A stretch of DNA of 64,000 nt from Nitrospirota bacterium (lineage in GTDB: Bacteria; Nitrospirota; Leptospirillia; Leptospirillales; Leptospirillaceae): NCBI GenBank assembly GCA_021801345.1, contig JAJYYA010000042.1, positions 1 to 64,000 of the forward strand, given 5' to 3'. Positions 36,111-50,069 of the stretch are shown here, one piece after another (the first letter of the stretch is position 1; the number at the start of each line of letters is the position of its first letter). The notes under the pieces are model-generated. The model was not told the origin of the DNA. It did no database searches and saw only the letters and a list, made by a program, of their open reading frames with translations. The translations under genes were made by a program, and so were the position numbers.

Positions 36111-36887
36111 GTGATACGACAATCCCCTTTTCCCACAAGTTTTTTTGGCGCAGAGGCCGAATATCCCGCCTTGGTTCGTTTTTGGTCGACATTCTTCCTT
36201 CCGGGGGCGCCGACTCTTCTTTGTCGTATTCTCCAGGCGGGAGGCGTCATCCTTCTCCTGGCCCTCCTTGTGACGGTCGGAGGCCCGGCCGATTCCCTGG
36301 CCGCCTCTTTGGGGCCGCAAGGAGAGGCCTCGGAGGACGGCGTTTCGGAGCCCTATGCCTCCCAGACGGGGCGATTCGGACTTTCCGTGATCTTTTCCTA
36401 CGATGCTCTCCAGACTCCGGCTCCGGTCAAGCTTTATCAGGACAGCGTCGGCGGTGTCGGAGAGCTCTCCTGGGGCCTCCTCCGGGGAATTCGTATCCTG
36501 GGCGGGGCCGGCTTCAATATGGGCTCCCCCCACATCGCTCCCCCGCTCAATGCGAAAAAGCCTTCCGGTCCCTCGATCTCCTATGTGCCGGTCTACGCTG
36601 GCCTTCAGGTCGAGCTGACGCGCTGGTTCCCCTCCATGATCAGGTACCAGCCGTGGTTTCCCTATCTCCGGGGCGATACGGGAGGGGTCTTTACCAGCGT
36701 GAGCAACGACGGACCGGCGAGCCTGCACACCAATGGCCTCATGGAAGATTTGGGTTTCGGGATCGAAGCCCGTCCCCGGGCCGTTCCCATGGCATTTTTC
36801 GGAGAGATCAGGTCCCAGTGGCTTTTTCTTGGCCCACAGATCATCACCGTTATACCGGTCATGGCGGGAACGACCTTTTATTTTTGA
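36111..36887 (+). CDS. Small outer-membrane beta-barrel-like protein, efflux-operon type
   Basis: I place the start at GTG 36111 after AGGAGAAG (36092-36099); the frame is open from 35991, but that is only about 4 nt from the predicted transcription start. The 258-residue product has a long N-terminal hydrophobic segment (ILQAGGVILLLALLVTVGG) as a signal peptide. Alternating Gly/aromatic strands follow, and the chain ends in VMAGTTFYF, a C-terminal Phe as in outer-membrane barrels. The protein at 45257 shares this plan and ending. Both precede or follow a TolC gene. Function unknown. Confidence 0.6.
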   Translation: MIRQSPFPTSFFGAEAEYPALVRFWSTFFLPGAPTLLCRILQAGGVILLLALLVTVGGPADSLAASLGPQGEASEDGVSEPYASQTGRFGLSVIFSYDALQTPAPVKLYQDSVGGVGELSWGLLRGIRILGGAGFNMGSPHIAPPLNAKKPSGPSISYVPVYAGLQVELTRWFPSMIRYQPWFPYLRGDTGGVFTSVSNDGPASLHTNGLMEDLGFGIEARPRAVPMAFFGEIRSQWLFLGPQIITVIPVMAGTTFYF

Positions 36888-36901: not shown

Positions 36902-38383
36902 ATGATGTCGAGGGATCTTGCAAAAATAAAGAACGGCAGGGGAAGAAGGGGCAGGAATCTTCCCTCTCTCTCCTTGCGGACTCTTGGCTTTCTTCTTTTT
37001 CTTTGGACCTTCCTTGTGTATTCCATTCCGGCGCGGGCGCAATCCTTCGATTCGAACACCACAATCCTCGCCCCCTCAAAAGAGCGCGCGCTTGCGATTC
37101 CTCACCATCTGACACTTCTTCAGGCGATGGAGATCACGATCGACCGGCATCCCCAGTACAAGCAGGCTCTCCATACGGCCCAGGCCAACAAGGAGGTCAT
37201 CGGGGAGGCTTTTTCCAATTATCTGCCGCATCTCTCCGCCGGGGCCGGCTACAACTTCGAGACCGGGAACTTCGTCATCTCCCCGGGGATCCCTGCCTCC
37301 TTTTACGCTGTCCTTCCGGCCAATTCAAATCAGGCCTACAACTTCTACCAGGCCTCCTTCAATCTCACCCAGACAATCTATACCTTCGGTCAGCGGGTCA
37401 CTCAGCTCCGCCAAGCCAAGTACTCCTATAAAGCCTCTCTTGACCAGGCCCGATGGACTCTCGTCAATCTCCTCTACGGCGTGGAGACGGCCTACGACAC
37501 CTTTGCCCAAAATCTCCTGCTCGTCGGTGCCGCAAAGAAAACCGTCGACGACTACACCGCACAGCTCCAGGTCGCCCAGGCGGAGTTCCAGATCGGCATG
37601 GCGGCCAAGTTCGATGTTCTTAATGCCCGCGTCAATCTTTCCAACGCAAAGCTGAACCTCATCACCGCCGAAAACAATGTCTCGACGGCCCGGGTCGCAC
37701 TTTCCAACGCCATGGGGATCGAAACAAACGAGCCTTACACGGTCGACACCGACCTTTCCTACGCCCCTTTTGACGCCGACAGCACAAAGCTCGTCCGGAC
37801 GGCTCTCGAAAATCGTCCTGACCTCAGTTCGGCCATGAACCAGAAGCTTTCCGATCTCCAGAACGAGCGCTACTATGAAAGCACCTACATGCCGTCGATC
37901 GGGATGACCGGCGGCTATACCTATGCCAGCATGTTCTTTCCTCTGACCTATAACTGGTCTGCGGGAGCGACGATCTCGATCCCGATCTTTTCGGGCTTTC
38001 TGACGGTCCACCAAGAGCGGCAGGCGCAGAAGACGACGCTGGCGGCTCGTGATGCCGAGCAGAATGTCCGGGTCGGGATTGTCTCGGCAATCCACCAGGA
38101 TGTCGACAATCTCAGGACGGCCTTGCAAAGGATCCGCACGACCCGGGACCTTCTCTCCCAGGCCAAGGAAAGCTTGCGACTTGCGGCAGGACAGTACCAG
38201 GTCGGAGTGGGAAGCGCCGTGGCGCTGACTCAGGCCGAGGCGGATCTCGCGGCTGCCCGGGCGCAGGTCGTCTCTGCAGTTTACGGCTACAAGATTGCCC
38301 GTGCAGCGCTCATCAAGGATGCTGGCCTCGACCCCCTGTCCCAGGCCAAGAGACGGAAGAATACGGAGGAGAGAAAAAAGTGA
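36902..38383 (+). CDS. TolC-family outer-membrane efflux protein
   Basis: The 493-residue product has a Tat-like or long Sec signal (Arg-rich start, hydrophobic core, ARAQS cleavage site near 46), then two OEP repeats. Hallmarks are the coiled-coil helices, FDVLNARVNLSNAKLNL and the paired second repeat with TQAEADLAAARAQ. The start is ATG 36902; a much longer upstream frame overlapping the barrel gene is noncoding. It is the outer channel for the RND pump encoded next. The stop overlaps the adaptor GTG. Confidence 0.92.
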   Translation: MMSRDLAKIKNGRGRRGRNLPSLSLRTLGFLLFLWTFLVYSIPARAQSFDSNTTILAPSKERALAIPHHLTLLQAMEITIDRHPQYKQALHTAQANKEVIGEAFSNYLPHLSAGAGYNFETGNFVISPGIPASFYAVLPANSNQAYNFYQASFNLTQTIYTFGQRVTQLRQAKYSYKASLDQARWTLVNLLYGVETAYDTFAQNLLLVGAAKKTVDDYTAQLQVAQAEFQIGMAAKFDVLNARVNLSNAKLNLITAENNVSTARVALSNAMGIETNEPYTVDTDLSYAPFDADSTKLVRTALENRPDLSSAMNQKLSDLQNERYYESTYMPSIGMTGGYTYASMFFPLTYNWSAGATISIPIFSGFLTVHQERQAQKTTLAARDAEQNVRVGIVSAIHQDVDNLRTALQRIRTTRDLLSQAKESLRLAAGQYQVGVGSAVALTQAEADLAAARAQVVSAVYGYKIARAALIKDAGLDPLSQAKRRKNTEERKK

Positions 38384-39489
38384 ATCGTCGCGGAACCCGT
38401 CTGACCCTGTTTCTTGTGGCCGCTTTCATTCTGGTCCTGATCGCGGTGCGATTTGTGCACCATTCGGGGGCACCTTCCCGCACTCGCGGCAAGGTGGCGG
38501 CTCCCGAGGTGGTGGGGGTCGTGCCCGTCAATCTCCGCGACATCTCCCTCGTCATCACGCTGACGGCCGATATTCAGCCGATCAACCAGGCGGCGATCTA
38601 TTCCCAGGTGAGCGGCTACCTCGACAAGATCACCGTCCGAAGAGGTTACCGCGTCAAAAAAGGCCAGCTGCTGGCCCATATCAACGACACCACTTTGAAG
38701 GCCCAATACCACCAGGCCCAGGCGAACCGGGACTATGTATGTCTCAATGCCACGCGCTACAAGGCGCTACTGGCGAAGAACCTCGTTTCCAAGGATGCCT
38801 ACGATCTGGCGAACTCCCAGTGCCGTCAGTCGCAGGCCACGGTGGACTATTCCCGGAAGATGCTCTCCTATGCCGACATTGTCGCTCCCTTCGACGGGTA
38901 TATCTTCAATCGCATGGTCGATCCGGGCGCGACCATCCCGGCAACGACCGCGGCCCTTTCCTCCGGCTCAAATCCCCTTTTTACCGTGGTCGATACCCAT
39001 ATCGTAAAGATTGTCGTGAATGTTCCCGAGCGCGACATCCGCTACCTTCACCTTGGCCTTCATGTCATGGTCCATGCCGACGCCTATCCCGGAGAGACCT
39101 TTACCGGGAAGATCACCCGCATGAACCCGGCGCTGGACACTTCGACGCGCACACTGGCGGTCGAGATCGATATGAACAATCCCGACGGTCGTCTCAAGCC
39201 CGGGATGTTCGCAAAGGCCGTCCTGAACCTGACGACCCACAAGGATGTTCTCCAGGTTCCGAAAATCGCGATCCTGTCGCGCCAGGGCAAGAGCTGGGTC
39301 TACACCCTCGAGCCGGGATCCGTCGTCAAAAAGCGCGAAGTGACTCTCGGGATTCTTGGCCAGAGAAATGCGGAGGTTCTCTCCGGTCTCTCTCCGGGAA
39401 TGAGCGTCGTGATAGCCGGCCAGGAGCATCTCGAAGACGGTGACCATGTTCAGGCCAAGGTGATCGATACCGGACTGCCAAACTTCTAA
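38380..39489 (+). CDS. RND efflux periplasmic adaptor (membrane fusion protein)
   Basis: The 369-residue protein has one N-terminal membrane anchor (about 9-26). A barrel-sandwich hybrid (about 60-95 and 170-200) flanks a short alpha-hairpin, and beta-barrel and membrane-proximal domains follow. GYLDKITVRRGYRVKKGQ is the typical lipoyl-like half. The start is GTG 38380, overlapping the TolC stop. It should bridge the inner-membrane pump and the TolC channel. Confidence 0.92.
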   Translation: MNRRGTRLTLFLVAAFILVLIAVRFVHHSGAPSRTRGKVAAPEVVGVVPVNLRDISLVITLTADIQPINQAAIYSQVSGYLDKITVRRGYRVKKGQLLAHINDTTLKAQYHQAQANRDYVCLNATRYKALLAKNLVSKDAYDLANSQCRQSQATVDYSRKMLSYADIVAPFDGYIFNRMVDPGATIPATTAALSSGSNPLFTVVDTHIVKIVVNVPERDIRYLHLGLHVMVHADAYPGETFTGKITRMNPALDTSTRTLAVEIDMNNPDGRLKPGMFAKAVLNLTTHKDVLQVPKIAILSRQGKSWVYTLEPGSVVKKREVTLGILGQRNAEVLSGLSPGMSVVIAGQEHLEDGDHVQAKVIDTGLPNF

Positions 39490-39516: not shown

Positions 39517-42500
39517 ATGTGGCTGACCCGTATCGCACTTAAAAACCCCATCGCGGTCTTTATGGCCTCGCTCCTTCTCGTCCTGGTGGGGTCCCAGTCC
39601 GTCAGCAAGCTTCCCATCGACCTCTTCCCGAACCTTGCCGTTCCTGTCCTGATCGTCGGGACCCTTTACCCCGGTGCCTCACCGGTCGACGTCGAAAGAA
39701 GCGTCACCTACCCCCTCGAAAAGACGCTGGCCACCATCGACGATGTCAGCCATATCCAATCGCAGTCTCGCATCGGCGTCTCCTCGATCCAGGTCTGGTT
39801 CAACTGGGGCAAGGATCTCAACGGGGGGCTCGTCCAGGCGGTCCAGAAGATCTCCCAAATCCAGAACCAGCTTCCCCCGGGCATTCAGCAGCCCTTTATC
39901 CTCAAGTTCGACATTGCCAATATCCCGGTGGTCTCCCTGACGGTCTCCGATCCCGAAATGAACCAGATCCAGCTCTACGACCTGGCCTACAACACGATCG
40001 AACCGCAGCTCGAACAGCTGCCCAACGTCTCGCAGGCGACGGTGAACGGGGGGAAGGTTCGCCAGATCAATATCGATGTCGACCCCCGCGAGCTTCTGGC
40101 CAGGAACCTGTCTATGATCCAGGTCGTGAATGCTGTCAACCTGGCCAATCTGATCCAGCCCTCCGGCGACATCAAGATCGGGAGCAAGGACTACAATCTT
40201 TTTGTCAACACCCAGATTAGCCGAAACCTTGTCGACGTCCTGAGAAATGTTCCCGTGGCGACGCAGGCGACCCCGGACGGGCGGACTGTCCCTGTCTTCG
40301 TCAAGGACTTTGCCCGGGTCGCGGATTCGGCCGAAACGCAGACGAACCTGGTGCGGGTCAACGGAGAGAACGCCGTCTATCTGTCGGTGAACAAGCAGCC
40401 CGGGTCGAATACGGTCGCGGTCGTCGATGCGGTCAGAGCGGTCATTCCCCACCTCCGGGGAATCCCCAAAGGCGTCCACCTCGACACCTTTTTCGACCAG
40501 TCCACCTATATCCGCGAGTCGATCCGGGGGCTCTACCACGAGTCGGTCCAGGGGGCGATTCTCGCGGTCATTGTCATTTTGCTCTTTCTCGGGAGCCTTC
40601 GGGCCACCTTCATCATCGGAGTGGCGATCCCGCTCTCGGCCCTGGTGGCCCTCATCTTTCTCTACTTCACACACGAGACTCTCAATATTTTTACCTTCGG
40701 CGGACTGGCACTGGGGATTGGGCGGCTCGTCGACGATTCGATCGTCGAGCTTGAAAATATCTTCCGCCACTTTTCTATTCGCGAAGAGAGCCGTCCCGTT
40801 GCCCTTCTGACGGCGGCCCGCGAGGTCGCCATGCCGATTTTGGCGTCCACGATCACGACGGTGATCGTCTTCTTCCCCATTGTCTTCATGGAAGGCATCG
40901 GTCGCCTTCTCTTTACGCCCATGGCGCTGACCATTACCTTTGCTCTCTTTGCCTCCTTTTTTGTCTCGCGGACGGTGACGCCTCTTCTGTGCTACCGGTT
41001 CCTGAAGGGAGGGGAGGTTCCTTCCGGAGCAGGCAAAGAGAGCCGTCTTCGCCGTTTTTTTTCCCGGCTGGAGAGTGGCTACCAGGAGATCCTGATCACG
41101 TCACTGCGCCACAGAAAAAAAGTTTATGTGGCGATGACGGTCCTCTTCTTTCTCACGCTTCCTCTCGTCAAGGGGATCGGGACCGAGTTCTTTCCCGCCC
41201 CGGACGAGAGCCAGTTTACGATCAATATTCAGGAGCCCCCCGGCACGCGCATTGAGATTACGAGCAAGACCGCCCGACAGATCGAGGATCTCGTCAAGAA
41301 AACTCTTCCCCCCGGCGAGATCCGCCTTATCGCTTCGAACATTGGACTTCGCAGTACGGCCGGCCGGGGGACAAACGGCGCCGCCTCGGTCTTCACCTCC
41401 AACACCGGCCCCGATACCGGGTTCGTCCAGGTGAACCTCGTCGACCCGGAAAAGCGCAGCGAAAACTCCGACCAGGCGATGGAGCGGGTGCGGAAGGCGG
41501 TTGCCGGCCTCTTCCCGGGGGTGAGGATCTACTTTATGCCGGGGGGGCTCATCGAACGGATTATCAATTTCGGCTACCAGGGGATTATCAACCTCGAGGT
41601 CTACGGGTATGATCTGAAGACGGGAGAGGATCTCTCCTACCGGCTGGCTCGGGAGATGGGGAAGATTCCCGGAGTCGGGGACATCCAGGTGCTTCCCAAC
41701 GACTTCCACTATCCCTCCTACAACGTGAAAATCGACCGGGTGAAGGCTCGCATGTTGGGTTTGTCGGTCTCCGACATCGCCTCGACCGTCCTGTGGAGCT
41801 TTGTCGGAAACGAGAACAATCCCTCGATCTACACCGATCCCGCTACGGGAAACGAATACAATATCGTCGTCGAGTTCGACCGTCCCTTCCGCCACTCCCT
41901 CGAAGATCTCCAAAACGTCTTTCTCACGACCCCTTCCGGCGAGCCGGTTCTTCTTCGCAATATCGCGACCATTGAGAAGGGAACCTCGCCGAACGAGGTC
42001 GACAGGAAGTTTATGACCCGGCTTATCACCATCACCGCCAATCCCGTGAACCGTTCTCTCGGAGAGATCGCCAGAGATCTTTCTGCGATGCTCGCCAAGA
42101 CCCCACTTCCCGACGGCTTCAGTGTCACCATGGCCGGACAGATCGCCGAACAGAAGGGAACCTTTCTCTCTCTCGGACTGGCGCTTCTTTCCTCCCTCTT
42201 TCTTGTCTACATGGTCCTTTCGATCCAGTTTCGCTCCTTCCTCGACCCTTTCATCATCATGTTCACCGTTCCCCTTGGGCTCATCGGGGTCATCTGGATG
42301 TTCTTCCTGACGGGAACGAACTTTTCCTCGATCGCCTTCATGGGAGTGATCGTGACGGGAGGAATTGCGGTCAGCAACGGGGTTCTTCTGGTCGACTACA
42401 CCAACAAACTCGTCCGGGAGAAGGGGAGAGACCTGAAGGAGGCGGTGGTTCTGGGCGGCCGGACGCGTCTTCGGCCGGTTCTTATGACGAGCATTGCGAC

Positions 42501-42732
42501 GATCACAGGGCTTATGCCTATGGCCATCGGACTTGAGGTGGGAAGCTCGAACAGTATGCCGCTGGCCCGGGCGGTGATCGGAGGGTTGAGCTTTTCGACG
42601 GTCTTTACTCTCGTGCTCATTCCCCTCGTCTACGTCTCTCTCCACGAGTGGCGAGAAAAGCGGCGAAGCAAGGGCACGACCTTCCCCACTCCGGCGGAGT
42701 GGGAGAAGGTCGCTCCTGCAAAAGAGGACTGA
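39517..42732 (+). CDS. RND-family inner-membrane efflux transporter
   Basis: The 1071-residue protein has the AcrB/MdtB plan: 12 membrane segments in two halves with large periplasmic loops after TM1 and TM7. It opens with the ITRIALKNPIAVFMASLL-type N-terminus. The proton-relay motif GRLVDDSIVELENI (TM4) is intact, as is GGIAVSNGVLLVDY in TM10-11. The HAE-1 or multidrug type is likelier than metal-exporting CusA, since the methionine-rich elements were not seen. Substrate unknown. It ends 7 bp from the convergent LysR gene. Confidence 0.94.
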   Translation: MWLTRIALKNPIAVFMASLLLVLVGSQSVSKLPIDLFPNLAVPVLIVGTLYPGASPVDVERSVTYPLEKTLATIDDVSHIQSQSRIGVSSIQVWFNWGKDLNGGLVQAVQKISQIQNQLPPGIQQPFILKFDIANIPVVSLTVSDPEMNQIQLYDLAYNTIEPQLEQLPNVSQATVNGGKVRQINIDVDPRELLARNLSMIQVVNAVNLANLIQPSGDIKIGSKDYNLFVNTQISRNLVDVLRNVPVATQATPDGRTVPVFVKDFARVADSAETQTNLVRVNGENAVYLSVNKQPGSNTVAVVDAVRAVIPHLRGIPKGVHLDTFFDQSTYIRESIRGLYHESVQGAILAVIVILLFLGSLRATFIIGVAIPLSALVALIFLYFTHETLNIFTFGGLALGIGRLVDDSIVELENIFRHFSIREESRPVALLTAAREVAMPILASTITTVIVFFPIVFMEGIGRLLFTPMALTITFALFASFFVSRTVTPLLCYRFLKGGEVPSGAGKESRLRRFFSRLESGYQEILITSLRHRKKVYVAMTVLFFLTLPLVKGIGTEFFPAPDESQFTINIQEPPGTRIEITSKTARQIEDLVKKTLPPGEIRLIASNIGLRSTAGRGTNGAASVFTSNTGPDTGFVQVNLVDPEKRSENSDQAMERVRKAVAGLFPGVRIYFMPGGLIERIINFGYQGIINLEVYGYDLKTGEDLSYRLAREMGKIPGVGDIQVLPNDFHYPSYNVKIDRVKARMLGLSVSDIASTVLWSFVGNENNPSIYTDPATGNEYNIVVEFDRPFRHSLEDLQNVFLTTPSGEPVLLRNIATIEKGTSPNEVDRKFMTRLITITANPVNRSLGEIARDLSAMLAKTPLPDGFSVTMAGQIAEQKGTFLSLGLALLSSLFLVYMVLSIQFRSFLDPFIIMFTVPLGLIGVIWMFFLTGTNFSSIAFMGVIVTGGIAVSNGVLLVDYTNKLVREKGRDLKEAVVLGGRTRLRPVLMTSIATITGLMPMAIGLEVGSSNSMPLARAVIGGLSFSTVFTLVLIPLVYVSLHEWREKRRSKGTTFPTPAEWEKVAPAKED

Positions 42733-42739
42733 TCGAAGG

Positions 42740-43678
42740 CTACTTTTTTTCCTTGAGGGGAGATTCGGACCATCCCGACGCCAGGATCTGGAGGGCGACC
42801 TGCTTCGTCGTCAGGTGGTGGATATCCGGCTCGTGCCGGGCGAAGGCCGACAGGGTGCAGTCGAAGGAGACCTCGTCGATGGAAAGTCCGATGAGCTCCC
42901 CGCTTTCGATCTCCTTCCTGAAGATACTGTTGGGAAAGATGCCGACGCCAAATCCGGAGAGCAGCGCCTTTCTCAGGACATCGACCTCTCCCGTGTCGAT
43001 CCCGAGCTTCGTTTTGAGGCCGAGCTTATGAAGCTTCTCCTCTATCGGCCGCCGGATCAGGCTGTCCGGGGGCGGAAGCAGGACGGGAAAGTTTTCGAGG
43101 ATCCGGACATTTCTCTGCCAGCGGTCTTTTGAAAGACCCGGCGACCCCAGTACGAGGGTTTTTGCCCTGTCGACGGGCAGATTGCGGATTTCGGAGGGGT
43201 TGGCGAAGGGGGAGGGGGTGTCATTCATGTGGTAGAACATGACGATGTCGGCCTGACCGCTTTCGAGTTCTCCAACGAGCTCCCGCTCCGCTCCATGAAA
43301 GGATTTCACAGGGATTCTTTTCTGGAATGTCCCGTGAAGATAGTGCTGAAGGAACCTTTCCCTGTTCTGGGGGGCTCCGAACCCTGTTCCGATGCGGAGG
43401 GAGTCGGTCTTCGCGATCGGGGTAAAGGAGTGGAGAAGTGACTCCGAACGGTTGACCCGTGCTATGATTTCAAGAGCGAGTTCGCGAAAGAGAAATCCTG
43501 CCTGACTCAGATAGACCCGTCGTCCGATCCGGTTGAAAAGGCTGACCTCGAGCTCCCTTTCAAGAAGCTGGATCTGCGTGCTGACAGCCGGCTGGGTGAC
43601 GGAAAGGGTCCGGGCCGCCCTTGTAAAGTTCAGGGATTCACCGACGACGAGAAATGTTTGAATCTGCGACAGGGTCAT
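42740..43678 (-). CDS. LysR-family transcriptional regulator
   Basis: The 312-residue protein has the LysR winged helix at 1-60 (FLVVGESLNFTRAARTLSVTQPAVSTQIQLLE) and a substrate-binding domain from about 90. It is divergent from the TolC/ABC exporter operon that begins at 43851, the classic position for a LysR regulator of the neighbouring genes. The effector cannot be inferred. Confidence 0.92.
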   Translation of the reverse strand: MTLSQIQTFLVVGESLNFTRAARTLSVTQPAVSTQIQLLERELEVSLFNRIGRRVYLSQAGFLFRELALEIIARVNRSESLLHSFTPIAKTDSLRIGTGFGAPQNRERFLQHYLHGTFQKRIPVKSFHGAERELVGELESGQADIVMFYHMNDTPSPFANPSEIRNLPVDRAKTLVLGSPGLSKDRWQRNVRILENFPVLLPPPDSLIRRPIEEKLHKLGLKTKLGIDTGEVDVLRKALLSGFGVGIFPNSIFRKEIESGELIGLSIDEVSFDCTLSAFARHEPDIHHLTTKQVALQILASGWSESPLKEKK

Positions 43679-43850: not shown

Positions 43851-45260
43851 TTGAATTTTTATTTTCGTTCTTTTCCGATTCTTTTTATCGTGACCTTATC
43901 GCTTTCGTCTTATGCTTTACCCATGGATTTTCCCGGGGCATTGGCCCATGCGGAGGATCTTCCGGGGAGCCCAGACGGCTCCTCCGCTTCTTTCGGCAGG
44001 CCGTTTCGGCTGACTCTTCGGGCCGCTCTCGGGATCGCCCTCAGGTCCTATCCGGGAATCGGGGCCGCCCAGCAGGGAGTTCTTGCTTCGAAAGCCGGAA
44101 TAGGCGTGGCCAAGAGTCAGTATTATCCGACCCTCTCCGGGGCGACGACCTATACGCGGGAGACGGGAAATTTCGGTCCCCAGCCGGGCTTCCCCTTTAC
44201 CATTCCCGAGTCCCCCGTCTCCTTCGACTTCTACCAGGCCCAGCTGACCCTTTCCGAGACCCTCTTTTCCTTTGGTCGCCGGCGCTCCCAGGTCAGCCAG
44301 AATCGCCATCTCTACAATGCCTCCAGAAGTCAGCACAGGCGGACGCTCCAGGACACCGCCCTCAATGTCGAAAAGGCCTTCTTCCTCGTCCTGAAGGACC
44401 AGAATCTCGTTTCGGTTGACGATTTGACGATTGCCGACTACCGGATTCAGGAGGAGGTGGCTCGGGTTCGCTACAAGGATGGAGTGGCGACCTCCTACGA
44501 TGTGCTCAATGCCCGGGTCAATCTCTCGAACGCCCGCCTCTCCCGGGTGACGGACAAGAATCAGGAGCGCATTGACCGCCTCGCCCTTGATCGGGCGATG
44601 GGCGTGGTGGCCCACGCCTCCTATCGGGTGGTCGCTCCCTCACATCTCTCCTCTCCGGATCTAAACCCCGACAGAGCCGTTGCGCTGGCTCTTTCCCGCC
44701 GGCCAGACCTCAAGACCCTGACCGAGCAGGCGCGTGCCCAGAAGCAGGTAGTCAAGTTCGATCAGGCGCAGTTCTTCCCGACGGTTCAGACGGTGGGGGC
44801 TTACAGCCTCGACAGCGAATTCTTTCCCCTCGTCTACAACTGGTCGGTGGGGACGACTCTGACCATTCCCATCTTCAACGGGTTCCAGTTCGTCCACCAG
44901 ACACAGATGGCCAGGGCTCAGATGCGCCAGATGATATTTCAAAGAGAAGACCTCCGGCAGCAGGCGATCGTCGAGGTTCGCTCCGATATCCTCAATATCA
45001 AGACATATCGTGAAAAGGTCGCGGCCGACACGGAGATCGTCGCCCAGGCCCGACAGAACCTCTTTCTGGCGGAAAACCAGTTCCGTGTCGGGACCGGGAC
45101 CTCGGTCGCAGTCACCCAGTCGGAGCGGGATCTGGCCAGTGCGCGCTCGAATCTGGTCAGGGACAAGGCGGATCTTGCGATCGCCATCGCAACGCTTCGG
45201 CACGATCAGGGAGTGAACCTCGACCCTGGAACCCACCGCATTCCCCGGGATCTGCCATGA
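43851..45260 (+). CDS. TolC-family outer-membrane protein of the ABC exporter locus
   Basis: The start is TTG 43851, 5 nt after AGAGG and in frame with a clear signal peptide (MNFYFRSFPILFIVTLSLSS); the frame is open back to 43695. The 469-residue product has two OEP repeats with YDVLNARVNLSNARL and VTQSERDLASARSN. It is a paralogue of the TolC protein at 36902, sharing motif wording in both repeats. It starts a five-gene set that lacks an RND pump but has an ABC-2 transporter. Confidence 0.9.
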   Translation: MNFYFRSFPILFIVTLSLSSYALPMDFPGALAHAEDLPGSPDGSSASFGRPFRLTLRAALGIALRSYPGIGAAQQGVLASKAGIGVAKSQYYPTLSGATTYTRETGNFGPQPGFPFTIPESPVSFDFYQAQLTLSETLFSFGRRRSQVSQNRHLYNASRSQHRRTLQDTALNVEKAFFLVLKDQNLVSVDDLTIADYRIQEEVARVRYKDGVATSYDVLNARVNLSNARLSRVTDKNQERIDRLALDRAMGVVAHASYRVVAPSHLSSPDLNPDRAVALALSRRPDLKTLTEQARAQKQVVKFDQAQFFPTVQTVGAYSLDSEFFPLVYNWSVGTTLTIPIFNGFQFVHQTQMARAQMRQMIFQREDLRQQAIVEVRSDILNIKTYREKVAADTEIVAQARQNLFLAENQFRVGTGTSVAVTQSERDLASARSNLVRDKADLAIAIATLRHDQGVNLDPGTHRIPRDLP

Positions 45261-46027
45261 AGCTCTCCGGCAAAGCGTCGCGATGGGCGCGTGTCGTCTT
45301 CGCGGGTTTGATTCTGGTTCACCTTGTTTTCCCTCTTCGCTCCCGAGCGGATTCGAATCCTCCGATGCCTCTTCCCGAATCCCCCGGACTTCCCCGTATC
45401 GCAGGAACGCACTCCGGGCCGGCCACCGACCGATGGTCTCTTTCCCCGACCTATTCCTACTACCTTCTCCCCGGGGGAGGGCTTTCGCGGACCATCGACC
45501 AGGCGATGGGGGTCGGAGGCGAACTCTCCTACCGCCTGGGGGACCTTCCTTCCGGGGGAACGCCCGAGAGCCTTTCTTCGCACTTTCGTATACTGGGCGA
45601 CTTTTCCTACTTTCAAATGACGCCGGGAGCCAACCTGGCCCCTCCGGCCTCCGGAGGATTTTTTTCCTCCTCCTCGCCCTCATCTGTCCCTCCCGTTCCC
45701 GGATCGCCCTCCGTCACGGGCTTTATCGTTCGTGCGGGGCTGGCCTACGACCTCTTCGGGATGGTTCCCGACTCCCTGGGGATCCACCGGATCCTTGTTC
45801 CCTATGTGCGCATTGATGCGGGGGGTGTCGACTGGGCGGTCTCGAATGTTCCGGGGATCTCCGGGCACCCTTACGGGGGGGTGGTCGATGCCGGAGCCGG
45901 ACTCGCACTCTCCATCCCGGGCTATCCGCTGGGGGTGTTTGGAGAGGCTGACCCGACCCTCTTCGATCTTTCGAACAACGTCATGACCATTTTGCCGCTC
46001 GTTGCTGGTATTATGGTGAGGTTCTGA
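45257..46027 (+). CDS. Small outer-membrane beta-barrel-like protein, ABC-locus type
   Basis: The 256-residue protein starts in the TolC stop (ATGA). It has a signal peptide (VVFAGLILVHLVFPLRSRA), repeated Gly/Tyr-rich strands, a Ser/Pro-rich loop near 135-150 and the ending LPLVAGIMVRF. The last 40 residues match the ending of the protein at 36111 in pattern (TVIPVMAGTTFYF). The shared ending and shared TolC neighbourhood suggest a related role, perhaps a TolC partner or assembly factor. No named family. Confidence 0.6.
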   Translation: MKLSGKASRWARVVFAGLILVHLVFPLRSRADSNPPMPLPESPGLPRIAGTHSGPATDRWSLSPTYSYYLLPGGGLSRTIDQAMGVGGELSYRLGDLPSGGTPESLSSHFRILGDFSYFQMTPGANLAPPASGGFFSSSSPSSVPPVPGSPSVTGFIVRAGLAYDLFGMVPDSLGIHRILVPYVRIDAGGVDWAVSNVPGISGHPYGGVVDAGAGLALSIPGYPLGVFGEADPTLFDLSNNVMTILPLVAGIMVRF

Positions 46028-46067
46028 CGGAGCCCCAAGGGGCATGACTCTTTTGGAGACTATGCAT

Positions 46068-46679
46068 ATGGACCAGAATGAGACAGAGAAAAAAAGTGGA
46101 CCGGAGAAGAGTTTTCGCCTTCCCAAGAGCTTCATCGTTCTCGGGGGGGGATCGATCCTTGTCATGGCGGCCGGGGTTGTGTACACGATTTTCTTTTACC
46201 TCTCCCTCCCCAATCACCACGATCTCGACTCGGCGGGTCAGGCGATCCGGCATGTTCCCCTTCCGGTTCCCCCCACGAGCTTCTTTCCCTCGGGGAAGGG
46301 GCCGGCGGTCGACAGCTTTGGGTCGAAGGACTTCGATCTGCACATCGGAGGGGTAAGCCGGACTCCGGACGGCTTCGACGTGTCGATGGTCTTTACGGCC
46401 AAAACGGACGGGGCCGACGGCGACGGTCTCTCTCTGGCTGTTGCGGGGACGCCCCGGTGGGTCGACTCCCGAAGGAACTCCGGAAAGGGGGCTGCCTCTC
46501 TCTCGACTGCGACACTCTTTAAAAAAGGGCTTCCGGGGAGTTTCACCGTCCACTTTTCAAGGATGCCGACGGCTCCGGTTTTTGATCTTTATCTGGGCCT
46601 CGTTGGAACTCGCGGCATCAAGGGAGACCGCTTCCTGATCCATTTCAAAAACATATCGACTCCCCGGACGCGCTCCTGA
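46068..46679 (+). CDS. Single-pass membrane protein of the ABC exporter locus
   Basis: The ATG at 46068 is best placed after GGAG (46055-46058); two earlier ATGs exist at 46044 and 46062. The 203-residue protein has a charged N-terminus, one transmembrane helix (about 30-50) and a periplasmic beta-rich domain with Pro-rich linker. It does not show the coiled-coil or lipoyl parts of a standard membrane fusion protein. Position between the TolC/barrel genes and the ATPase suggests that it links the inner-membrane transporter to the outer membrane. Family not recognised. Confidence 0.6.
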   Translation: MDQNETEKKSGPEKSFRLPKSFIVLGGGSILVMAAGVVYTIFFYLSLPNHHDLDSAGQAIRHVPLPVPPTSFFPSGKGPAVDSFGSKDFDLHIGGVSRTPDGFDVSMVFTAKTDGADGDGLSLAVAGTPRWVDSRRNSGKGAASLSTATLFKKGLPGSFTVHFSRMPTAPVFDLYLGLVGTRGIKGDRFLIHFKNISTPRTRS

Positions 46680-47437
46680 TGGGAGGATCCGGAGAGAAGG
46701 TGCTCGTTTCCGAAAAGGTGTCCAAGCGGTATCTTCCGGGGGGCCCCTTTGCGGTCAAGGAGGTCGACCTAAGCCTCCATGCCGGGGAGGTCGTAAGCAT
46801 GGTGGGCCCCAACGGCGCGGGAAAGTCGACCCTTGTTCAAATGATGCTGGGGCTACTCATTCCCGATGGGGGAAGCATCCGGATCTTTGGACAGGACGTC
46901 GTCGCCGACAGGCGTCGGATCGCCCACCGGATCAACTATGCCTCGACCGACCTGAGCCTTCCCTACGCGCTGACCGTCAGGGAAAACCTTTTGACCTACG
47001 CCCTCATCTACAACATGAAAAAACCTCGGGAGAGAGTCTCTCGACTCCTCTCCCTTCTCGGCCTCGAGTCGTTTGCCGACCGGAAGGTCGGGGCTCTTTC
47101 GACCGGACAGGTGGCGCGCATGGGGATCGCCAAGGCTCTTGTCAACGATCCGGAGATTCTCTTTCTCGACGAGCCCACGGCGACCCTCGATCCCGAGGTT
47201 TCCGCGCAACTTCGCCAGCTTCTTGCCGAGATGGTTCGGGAGCGGGGGATGGCCCTTCTCTATACTTCCCACAATATGCGGGAGGTAGAGCGCTTTTCCG
47301 ACCGCATCCTCCTCATGCGCGAAGGCGAGATCGCCGCACAGGGAACGGCCTCATCTCTCATGGATCGCTACAAGACGCAGGATCTCGAGGCTCTTTTTCT
47401 TCTCGTGGCCGGAAAGAAGGAGGGGGCCGTTGTCTGA
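46679..47437 (+). CDS. ABC transporter ATP-binding protein (ABC-2 type exporter)
   Basis: The 252-residue ATPase has Walker A GPNGAGKST (43-51), a slightly altered signature LSTGQ, Walker B ILFLDEPTATLD and the H-loop SHNMREVE. It belongs to the CcmA/NatA type that energises ABC-2 permeases. The start overlaps the previous stop by one base (TGATG), and its end overlaps the permease start by 8 nt. Confidence 0.93.
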   Translation: MGGSGEKVLVSEKVSKRYLPGGPFAVKEVDLSLHAGEVVSMVGPNGAGKSTLVQMMLGLLIPDGGSIRIFGQDVVADRRRIAHRINYASTDLSLPYALTVRENLLTYALIYNMKKPRERVSRLLSLLGLESFADRKVGALSTGQVARMGIAKALVNDPEILFLDEPTATLDPEVSAQLRQLLAEMVRERGMALLYTSHNMREVERFSDRILLMREGEIAAQGTASSLMDRYKTQDLEALFLLVAGKKEGAVV

Positions 47438-48251
47438 AGGACCGGAGCCGGTCTCCCTCTTCTCCTGGCGTCCGCTGGCCGGAATCCTCTACCGGCAGGC
47501 GGTCCTCTATCGCCGTTCGCTTCCGAGGTGGATGGAGATCTTCTACTGGCCCCTCCTCGATCTTCTCGTCTGGGGGTTTCTGACGCTCTATCTCAAGCGC
47601 ATCCCCTCCTTTCTTCCCTCGGCCGTCGTCTCCCTTCTCGGGGCACTTCTTCTCTGGGACATGCTCTACAGGGCGCAGCAGGGAATCTCCGTCATGTTTC
47701 TCGAAGAGATCTGGTCGAGGAATCTGATTCATCTTCTCGTCGCGCCCATTACTCCCTATCATGTCGTTTTCGCAGCCATTGTCTCGAGCTTCGGCAAGGT
47801 TCTCCTCTCCTCGACGGTGGCCGCGACCCTGGCCTACTTTCTTTTTTCATTCAAGATTTTTTCGCTCGGGATCGACCTTCTTTTTTTTGTCGGAGCCCTG
47901 CTGACCATGGGGTGGGCCCTGGGCATCATGACGACGGCGATCATCCTTCGATTCGGGCAGGAGGCGGAGGTGTTGGCCTGGGGGATCATCTTTCTCTTCC
48001 AGCCCTTTTCCGCCGTCTTCAATCCCGTCGCCGTCCTTCCTCCGGTCGCGGCAACACTGTCCCGGTTCGTTCCCGCCTCCTATGTCTTCGAGGGGATGCG
48101 TTCTCTTCTGACGGTGGGGACCATGCCCTTTCGGGACCTTTTTATGGCCTATCTCCTTGACGCCGTCTATATGGCCGGAGCAGTCTTTCTCTATGCCGGT
48201 GTGATTCGCCGCGCTCGCAGAAGGGGGTTTCACTTAAAGCTTGGATCTTGA
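47430..48251 (+). CDS. ABC-2 type transporter permease
   Basis: The 273-residue integral membrane protein has about six transmembrane segments and the ABC-2 motif region FEGMRSLLTVG near the C-terminus. The start is TTG 47430 inside the ATPase gene. As a single permease subunit it would act as a homodimer with the ATPase. The order TolC, barrel, membrane protein, ATPase, permease is a complete export chain except for a canonical adaptor. Confidence 0.9.
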   Translation: MSEGPEPVSLFSWRPLAGILYRQAVLYRRSLPRWMEIFYWPLLDLLVWGFLTLYLKRIPSFLPSAVVSLLGALLLWDMLYRAQQGISVMFLEEIWSRNLIHLLVAPITPYHVVFAAIVSSFGKVLLSSTVAATLAYFLFSFKIFSLGIDLLFFVGALLTMGWALGIMTTAIILRFGQEAEVLAWGIIFLFQPFSAVFNPVAVLPPVAATLSRFVPASYVFEGMRSLLTVGTMPFRDLFMAYLLDAVYMAGAVFLYAGVIRRARRRGFHLKLGS

Positions 48252-48300: not shown

Positions 48301-49035
48301 ATGGCTAAGCGCCCTGTCGTCTCGGCCGCTGTTGCGGAGATCATCCGGGAAACGCCCCGGGTTTCGACCTTTGTTCTGGAGTTTCCGAAAGGAACGGATT
48401 TTGATTTCAGGTCGGGGCAGTTCGCCATGCTCTCGCTTCCGGATTTTTTAAACGACAAGGGCCGTCCTGTCCGCCGGGCCTACTCCATCGCGTCCTCACC
48501 GCCCGAGTTGCGTGACCGAAGGATTGCCTTCACCATCACCCGGAAAGGGGAGGGGGGGTATTTCTCCAACCGTATCCACGAATCCCGCGTCGGGGACTCC
48601 GCGCTGGTGGAGGGCCCTTACGGAACATCCTTCGTTCTTGACCCCCTTGACCCGAGACCCCACCTCTTTCTTGCGGCAGGGAGCGGAATTGCCCCCTTGC
48701 GCTCGATGATCCGGACACTGCTTTCCGGGGAGACTCCTCCTCCGATCGAACTCCTCTACGGATTTCGCGACCGGGAGGACTTCATCTACGCCGAGGAGAT
48801 GAAAGAGTACGAGAAGGCCGTTCCCGGGTTCACCCTTCGGGTCGCCCACTCCCGCCCCTCCCCGGGATGGACCGGTCATTCGGGGCGGGTTCCCGAGATT
48901 CTCCCCCGCCTGTATCCGTCGTACCAGGGGCAGGTGGTCTATATTTGCGGACATCCGGAGATGGTAATATCGACGGTTTCATGGCTCAAATCCGCCGGGT
49001 TTCCGGAAGAGTCCATCCGCAAGGAGCAATGGTAG
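48301..49035 (+). CDS. Ferredoxin/flavodoxin-NADP reductase-like FAD oxidoreductase
   Basis: The 244-residue protein has an FAD domain with RRAYSIAS (Arg-x-Tyr-Ser) and the GPYGTSF loop, then an NAD(P) domain with AAGSGIAPLRSM and YICGHPEMV, ending in a Glu-Gln-Trp. The C-terminal aromatic is typical of plant-type FNRs, whose last residue stacks on FAD. The start is ATG 48301 with AAAGGAT upstream. It would move electrons between NAD(P)H and a ferredoxin or flavodoxin. Confidence 0.9.
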   Translation: MAKRPVVSAAVAEIIRETPRVSTFVLEFPKGTDFDFRSGQFAMLSLPDFLNDKGRPVRRAYSIASSPPELRDRRIAFTITRKGEGGYFSNRIHESRVGDSALVEGPYGTSFVLDPLDPRPHLFLAAGSGIAPLRSMIRTLLSGETPPPIELLYGFRDREDFIYAEEMKEYEKAVPGFTLRVAHSRPSPGWTGHSGRVPEILPRLYPSYQGQVVYICGHPEMVISTVSWLKSAGFPEESIRKEQW

Positions 49036-49058: not shown

Positions 49059-50069
49059 ATGGAAAACAATCCCTTTCCCTTCCAGGAGGATCCTTCGGGA
49101 AGGGGGCCCTCCACCCGGCGTTCTGCTTGGCGGAGAACGGTCGGGGCGGTCTTTCTTCTTGTGGTCCTCCTCCCCGCCCTCTTTCTCTTCGTCTTCTACT
49201 ATCGGGAGGTCTCGGTCACCTACTATATGACCAGAAACCCCCTAGAACCGGCCGCTCTCCATCTCGCCTCCCGCATGGAGGCGATCCTCCTGGGAAACAT
49301 GCGGGCGCTTTCGGCCGTATCAGACCAGATTCGATGGTCAAACTCTCCCCCCTCCGAAGAGTCCTTGAGGAACGTGCTGGGGCGGTACATCCGGGAGGGA
49401 GACCTTGCGGCCTATGGAGGATTTGCCGTGCTTGACGCCCAGGGAGGGGTCCTGGCCCTTTTGGACCGGCGCGATATCGATCCCTACGTTCAAAGAGCGC
49501 GAAAGCTTGCTTCAGACCTTGTCGCAAGGGGAGGGCGCTTTCTCGTCGAGACGATCGTGAGCCCTGGCGCTCACCCCGAGATCATTTTGATGACGGCTGT
49601 CCGGACCGGACAGACCGCTTCGGGCGGAGGGGGAGTCCTCGTGGCGCTCCGGAACCTGTCGGGGGAGATGAGCAAAAATCTTCCGGTTCCGAGATTTCGC
49701 GGGACTTCTGGCCGCTCCTATCTGCTCTCTTCAGATGGCCTTGTCCTGGCCTCTTCCGACCCGGCAATGGTCGGGCTCGATCTTCACAACGCCGGACGGG
49801 CGGCCCTTCTTGATGTTTTTGCAAAGGGGCGGGCAGGGACGGTGACGGCAACGGTCGACGGCGTCAAGACCACCTTCGGTTCGGCGCTTCTTCTCTCCTT
49901 GACGGGGATTTCTTCTAAGCCCTGGTTTGCGGTTCTCGAGGCCCCCCAAGCCTCTCTCGACGATCAGGCCGCCCGGACGCGCCTGAATATGGATCTGATT
50001 GTCTTTCTTCTCGTTCCGGCTTTCTTAATTATAATCCTTTTCATTCTCTACAAGAGCTTTCGGCCGTAG
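49059..50069 (+). CDS. Membrane-anchored Cache-domain sensor protein without output domain
   Basis: The ATG at 49059 follows GAGGAG by 7 nt; the frame is open far upstream inside the reductase gene. The 336-residue protein has an N-terminal membrane helix (about 28-48), a periplasmic dCache-like region (about 55-305; GGFAVLDAQGGVLAL and GRSYLLSSDGLVLASS are the typical PAS-like strands) and a C-terminal membrane helix (about 313-332). It ends five residues later, so there is no HAMP, kinase, cyclase or MCP domain. Confidence 0.8.
   Translation: MENNPFPFQEDPSGRGPSTRRSAWRRTVGAVFLLVVLLPALFLFVFYYREVSVTYYMTRNPLEPAALHLASRMEAILLGNMRALSAVSDQIRWSNSPPSEESLRNVLGRYIREGDLAAYGGFAVLDAQGGVLALLDRRDIDPYVQRARKLASDLVARGGRFLVETIVSPGAHPEIILMTAVRTGQTASGGGGVLVALRNLSGEMSKNLPVPRFRGTSGRSYLLSSDGLVLASSDPAMVGLDLHNAGRAALLDVFAKGRAGTVTATVDGVKTTFGSALLLSLTGISSKPWFAVLEAPQASLDDQAARTRLNMDLIVFLLVPAFLIIILFILYKSFRP

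Follow-up and report, generated by a model that had tools for sequence, protein, structure and literature searches.

The locus described here occupies positions 43,851 to 48,251 of a 64,000-nucleotide stretch of DNA (contig JAJYYA010000042.1 of assembly GCA_021801345.1, positions 1 to 64,000; hereafter the window) from a Nitrospirota bacterium of the family Leptospirillaceae, whose members are iron-oxidising, acidophilic bacteria. Five genes encode, in order, a TolC-family outer-membrane channel, a small protein predicted to be an outer-membrane beta-barrel, a 203-residue anchored protein that we call P203, an ABC ATPase and an ABC-2 permease, and a LysR-type regulator gene is divergent from them (Table 1). 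An earlier note, made from the sequence alone, had reported this chain of genes and had suggested that P203 may be a new kind of linker in an exporter without a recognisable adaptor. The description of the chain is confirmed: the coordinates, overlaps and Pfam assignments hold, the four spacings from TolC to the permease are -4, +40, -1 and -8 nucleotides (nt), the start codon that the note used for P203 is backed by the homologue alignment, and the divergent gap between LysR and TolC is 172 nt. The ATPase and the permease are encoded together, as in ABC-2 exporters. No membrane fusion protein (MFP) is encoded in the cluster, as the note had said, and a pump, an MFP and a TolC do not occur together in one locus here, an MFP lying in the adjacent RND operon. 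The genome (2.6 Mb, 73 contigs) is 97% complete. We propose, at what we judge to be an even chance, that the locus is a Leptospirillaceae-specific export cluster, in which a two-gene ABC-2 exporter widespread in Nitrospirota works with a private periplasmic subunit, P203, and a duplicated TolC/barrel pair.

The order TolC-barrel-P203-ATPase-permease-reductase-dCache protein is shared by all Leptospirillaceae genomes with an assembled locus. A further 18 genomes, with 19 related loci, repeat the gene order and the near-zero gaps, with P203 identity down to 33-35%, and since they recur in loci so diverged, the arrangement is more than chance; the same five-gene order, which the earlier note had proposed to look for in other genomes, was thus found. 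In the relatives (spacings estimated from blast ends), TolC and barrel overlap in nearly all, and the following gaps are 14 to 57 nt (barrel-P203), -17 to 9 nt (P203-ATPase), -10 to 59 nt (ATPase-permease), 39 to 139 nt (permease-reductase) and 35 to 102 nt (reductase-dCache). Because the spacings are short through the dCache gene and then become variable (321-4094 nt), the conserved cluster comprises seven genes, five of which form a tight core. The full regional order in the assembled loci is barrel'-TolC'-MFP-RND, LysR (opposite strand), then the seven genes, and LysR is placed in the identical divergent position in each locus that covers it. P203 itself was found in 19 of the 21 Leptospirillaceae genomes. 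Of the two others, G011 has the locus divided over contig ends (the barrel gene truncated at the end of one contig, the permease gene at base 2 of another), and in G019, which is 80% complete, the entire region is missing. When 84,980 species were scanned by pattern, 18 P203 loci were returned, all from Leptospirillaceae (the labels read Leptospirillum sp. or Nitrospirae bacterium), and a profile search of 275 other Nitrospirota gave no convincing P203; six matches there, at E 0.02-0.09, were short and fragmentary, with no score above 15.5 bits, and were judged to be chance. The phylum samples comprised 100-300 genomes, many of them fragmented. In the searches made, the putative helper P203 is therefore confined to Leptospirillaceae and found nowhere else. 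The earlier note had regarded P203 without the transporter as evidence against its proposal; we looked for such cases in the searched genomes and never saw one, P203 being always beside the pump.

Neither the sequence nor the predicted fold of P203 is that of a membrane fusion protein. The AlphaFold2 (AF2) model of P203, built from 18 sequences (the AF2 alignments overall held 17-18 related sequences), has a transmembrane (TM) helix at residues 20-45, a low-confidence linker at 47-74 and a beta-sandwich at about 80-200 with a predicted local distance difference test score (pLDDT) above 90. The protein would thus be single-pass, with its N terminus inside and an immunoglobulin-like (Ig-like) domain predicted to be periplasmic, in agreement with the note's single-pass periplasmic protein. 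Structure prediction of P203 alone, a check that the note had proposed, returned no alpha-helical hairpin, the TM helix being the sole helix; a single Ig-like sandwich is found instead of lipoyl or beta-barrel adaptor domains, and the 50 best-ranked fold matches in the PDB contain no adaptor. In AcrA, MacA, MexA and HlyD, the interface that docks with TolC lies in the RLS/RLT motif (PMC3391258). The RxxxLxxxxxxS motif occurs in 0 of the 18 P203 sequences, and none of these 18 members matches a Pfam MFP family. Searches of Pfam and NCBIfam with P203 and the barrel protein gave no family match, only spurious ones at E 0.2, and hhalign of P203 with the MFP at 38380 gave a probability of 0.1%, with no profile similarity. 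A distant MFP in disguise was ruled out by Pfam, a PDB profile, the RLS-motif search, hhalign and the predicted fold. The new linker of the earlier note is thus not supported in the form proposed, the predicted fold being a lone Ig-like sandwich without a TolC-docking element.

Of the columns in the P203 alignment, 36 are invariant; among them are those of VPLPVPP, in the linker, and of PRWVD, in the sandwich. VPLPVPP (residues 63-69, window positions 46254-46274) is invariant in all homologues though it lies in the predicted disordered tether. For this reason it is a candidate binding site, and its conservation suggests contact with a protein. Such a contact could be with the outer-membrane components: P203 may represent a new adaptor class that does the work of an MFP. 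Its Ig-like domains, held on the VPLPVPP linker, would bind either the tip of TolC or the barrel and in this way connect the ABC-2 pump with TolC. We think this unlikely, though not negligible. P203 holds the MFP's place in the gene order (barrel-TolC-MFP-RND versus TolC-barrel-P203-ATPase-permease), it is present exactly where TolC and the pump co-occur and absent where the pump is bare, its invariant linker motif would fit a protein contact, and we estimate that a tether of about 10 nm plus a 4 nm domain could span to the TolC tip. However, it has none of the hairpin, RLS motif, lipoyl domain or barrel domain of an adaptor, a single small sandwich would be unlikely to make a sealed conduit, and the TolC tips resemble those that dock ordinary fusion proteins. 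It is likewise doubtful that P203 is the first of a class of non-MFP adaptors, possibly with the barrel as co-receptor, by which TolC is recruited and opened without hairpins.

The pump has a much wider distribution. The permease profile matched in 101 of 198 Nitrospirota genomes, including 81 of the 177 outside the family, nearly always in one copy, and relatives annotated as an ATPase-permease pair are also found on Azospirillum and Bradyrhizobium plasmids; identity to the permease is 36-53% in non-family Nitrospirota and 39-40% in Azospirillum. We read 20 loci from outside the family: the ATPase gene was directly adjacent and on the same strand in 17 (at a strict threshold), P203, barrel or an in-operon TolC occurred in none of the 20, and a TolC gene lay within the stretch in three, 2.9-7.2 kb off and in two of these on the opposite strand. 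These loci show the wider permease subfamily to be an exporter of two genes, to which TolC, barrel and P203 look to have been added in Leptospirillaceae. Because the subfamily elsewhere in Nitrospirota is a bare ATPase-permease unit, the ancestry of the pump does not require it to be tripartite, and the earlier note's premise that tripartite exporters need a fusion protein is not binding on it. The closest PDB matches of the ATPase are ABCA phospholipid transporters, and in NCBIfam it is near DrrA and NodI, among others; this is a weak clue to the substrate class.

These features also raise a reading in which the pump and P203 act at the inner membrane only, for example as a flippase for a lipid or an envelope precursor with a periplasmic acceptor, and TolC and the barrel are spare parts for the RND pump or others. 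The pump does stand alone as a two-gene unit elsewhere, the ABCA matches would suit a lipid substrate, although ATPases are poor substrate guides, and paralogues of both TolC and the barrel are found in the RND operon. Against this, no genome has the TolC and barrel genes set apart from the pump genes: they overlap them or lie almost directly beside them in each, and the RND operon is already equipped with a TolC of its own. We consider a system confined to the inner membrane improbable.

The TolC protein of the locus has two OEP stretches and the tip motifs RYKDGVATSYDVLNA and QFRVGTGTSVAVTQ, which are the adaptor-docking segments; all 16 sequences examined keep both, and the segments are similar to those found in OprM and in the RND clade. 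It is 36-40% identical to the TolC of the RND operon, compared with 25-34% to other TolCs, and groups with the former in the tree (support 86/85). Wherever a related locus extends far enough, the RND operon is its conserved neighbour, together with the operon's normal MFP (38380), which lies 4.4 kb upstream of the locus in the window and whose family has the exact RLS motif in all 13 members examined. The genome contains 7 TolC genes and 12 HlyD_D23 fusion-protein matches, and the TolC at 43851 is its only TolC without an MFP in its own operon. As for an orphan MFP elsewhere in the genome, all 12 matches appear beside RND, MFS-like, MacB-like or AaeB-like pump genes (contexts taken from blast, TM counts and a reading of mechanical open reading frame (ORF) calls, not from curated models). 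Since each appears beside another pump, an MFP could be shared in trans, but no orphan seems to be waiting for this pump. The MFP at 38380, which carries the RLS motif and shares an operon with the sister TolC, is a serious alternative to P203 as the adaptor. On this basis the locus could even be an ordinary tripartite ABC exporter that borrows the MFP of the RND operon, P203 being a minor accessory without a part in the mechanism. The proximity of this MFP and the intact TolC tips would suit such a machine, but P203 is kept as widely as the pump within the family, and its invariant columns argue for an important role; we regard this reading as very improbable.

Taking the Leptospirillaceae-specific export cluster as our preferred reading, we suggest a plausible mechanism. 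The substrate, small and probably amphiphilic, would be carried across the inner membrane, or out of it, by the ATPase-permease pair. P203 would be a private subunit of the exporter, anchored in the inner membrane, whose Ig-like domain engages the pump or the substrate at the periplasmic face by means of a proline-containing tether of about 33 residues; it may thereby assist the hand-over or gating of the substrate, with no sealed adaptor tube being formed. TolC and the eight-stranded barrel would provide the outer-membrane exit. The opener of TolC could be either the neighbouring MFP or P203; most likely, TolC still depends on an RLS-type MFP, for which 38380 is the nearest candidate. Several points weigh against this scheme. 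One adaptor, BesA, is without a hairpin (PMC4446572), so that a missing hairpin is by itself not decisive and leaves an adaptor role possible for P203, which, beyond what the BesA argument alone addresses, also lacks the other adaptor domains. The grouping of the two TolCs is only moderately supported and comes with long-branch warnings. The LysR gene stands between the conserved RND operon and the locus, and for this reason their co-regulation is a possibility at most. If P203 couples the ABC-2 pump to TolC, recruitment of TolC by adaptors of the MFP type would be a rule with an exception; otherwise, the locus still shows how, in nature, a simple two-part exporter gains an outer-membrane stage with parts borrowed from a neighbouring pump. 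The two possibilities make opposite predictions for a few deletions.

Table 1. Genes of the export locus and its surroundings in the window
Feature	Coordinates	Strand	Basis
Barrel paralogue, first gene of RND operon (matched part only; true start further upstream)	36366..36887	+	tblastn 29% identity, E 2e-10
TolC paralogue of RND operon	36932..38383	+	36% identity to TolC 43851; nearest tree relative
Normal membrane fusion protein (MFP), RLS motif RYKALLAKNLVS	38380..39489	+	HlyD_D23 E 2e-33
RND pump	39517..42732	+	ACR_tran E 6e-231
LysR-type regulator, divergent	42740..43678	-	Pfam HTH_1 E 5e-19, LysR_substrate E 1e-13
TolC-family outer-membrane channel	43851..45260	+	Pfam OEP E 9e-59; OprM best PDB match
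Predicted 8-stranded outer-membrane beta-barrel protein	45257..46027	+	AF2 model and Foldseek; no Pfam match
P203, anchored protein, 203 residues	46068..46679	+	AF2 model, Foldseek, alignment
ABC ATPase (DrrA/NodI/ABCA-like)	46679..47437	+	ABC_tran E 5e-34; NCBIfam drrA E 5e-58, below drrA cut-off
ABC-2 permease, 273 residues	47430..48251	+	Pfam ABC2_membrane E 1e-7
FAD/NAD(P)H reductase (flavin reductase)	48301..49035	+	NAD_binding_1 E 3e-20, FAD_binding_6 E 1e-6
Two-TM dCache-like protein	49071..50069	+	dCache_1 in 5/9 homologues, best E 1.4e-5; PDB 4wy9 E 0.003

The AF2 model of the barrel protein (mean pLDDT 73) has a signal helix, a Pro-rich unstructured N-terminal segment, eight strands and a C-terminal F, so the predicted structure has the signal peptide, strand number and C-terminal aromatic residue of a small eight-stranded barrel. 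Each of the two adjacent operons pairs a barrel with TolC, and among the 198 Nitrospirota genomes this barrel family was found in Leptospirillaceae only; the paralogue heads the RND operon throughout the family, as judged by a profile match at the 36366 position. Because the barrel accompanies TolC also where an MFP is present, a companion of TolC is probably a better description of it than a stand-in for an adaptor. Downstream, the flavin reductase, a member of the conserved cluster, is without a recognised ferredoxin domain. In the dCache-like protein, two TM helices flank a periplasmic dCache-like domain, and a cytoplasmic output domain is missing, which is unusual for Cache; the protein may be a sensor or binder of the exported compound. 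The dCache gene and a peptidoglycan-binding gene are about 4 kb apart in some relatives, and in one of them (L026:2541-5939, + strand) this gap contains an opposite-strand ORF of 1132 amino acids that, read by eye, looks like a GAF-GGDEF-EAL cyclic-di-GMP protein. Scans of the locus for sigma-70 promoters and terminators were at chance level, and no clear LysR-operator-like stretch conserved across genera was seen in the 172-nt divergent gap. Open-access literature searches on Leptospirillum with TolC or ABC transporters gave nothing attributable to the locus. Two TolC genes and an RND set appear in a chloride transcriptome of L. ferriphilum (PMC9053815), and these could not be mapped to it.

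In comparison with known systems, the locus resembles the tripartite ABC exporters MacAB-TolC and HlyBD-TolC in that an ABC pump and a TolC with conserved tips are co-encoded, but differs in having no MFP, P203 showing none of the MFP hallmarks, and in its permease, which is of the ABC-2 type rather than the MacB or HlyB type. The RND operon next door (barrel-TolC-MFP-RND) shares paralogous TolC and barrel genes with it but works with an MFP of the normal kind and a pump of the RND type. The barrel protein has the predicted fold of OmpX, NspA, the OmpA TM domain and OmpW (Foldseek E 1e-6 to 1e-4, probability 1.0), without a sequence-level match, and is family-specific and found with TolC in two adjacent operons. 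The periplasmic domain of P203 is likened by Foldseek to the Ig-like domains of ApaG and the adaptin ear (E 7e-4 and weaker, probability 1.0); at 9-17% identity and a TM-score to the targets of about 0.5, and in another compartment and architecture, this is a resemblance of fold only. Finally, the DrrAB, NodIJ and YadGH-like exporters and the bare pairs of other Nitrospirota and Azospirillum share the ATPase-permease pair with the locus, which differs from such two-gene ABC-2 exporters in its adjacent TolC, barrel and P203 genes.

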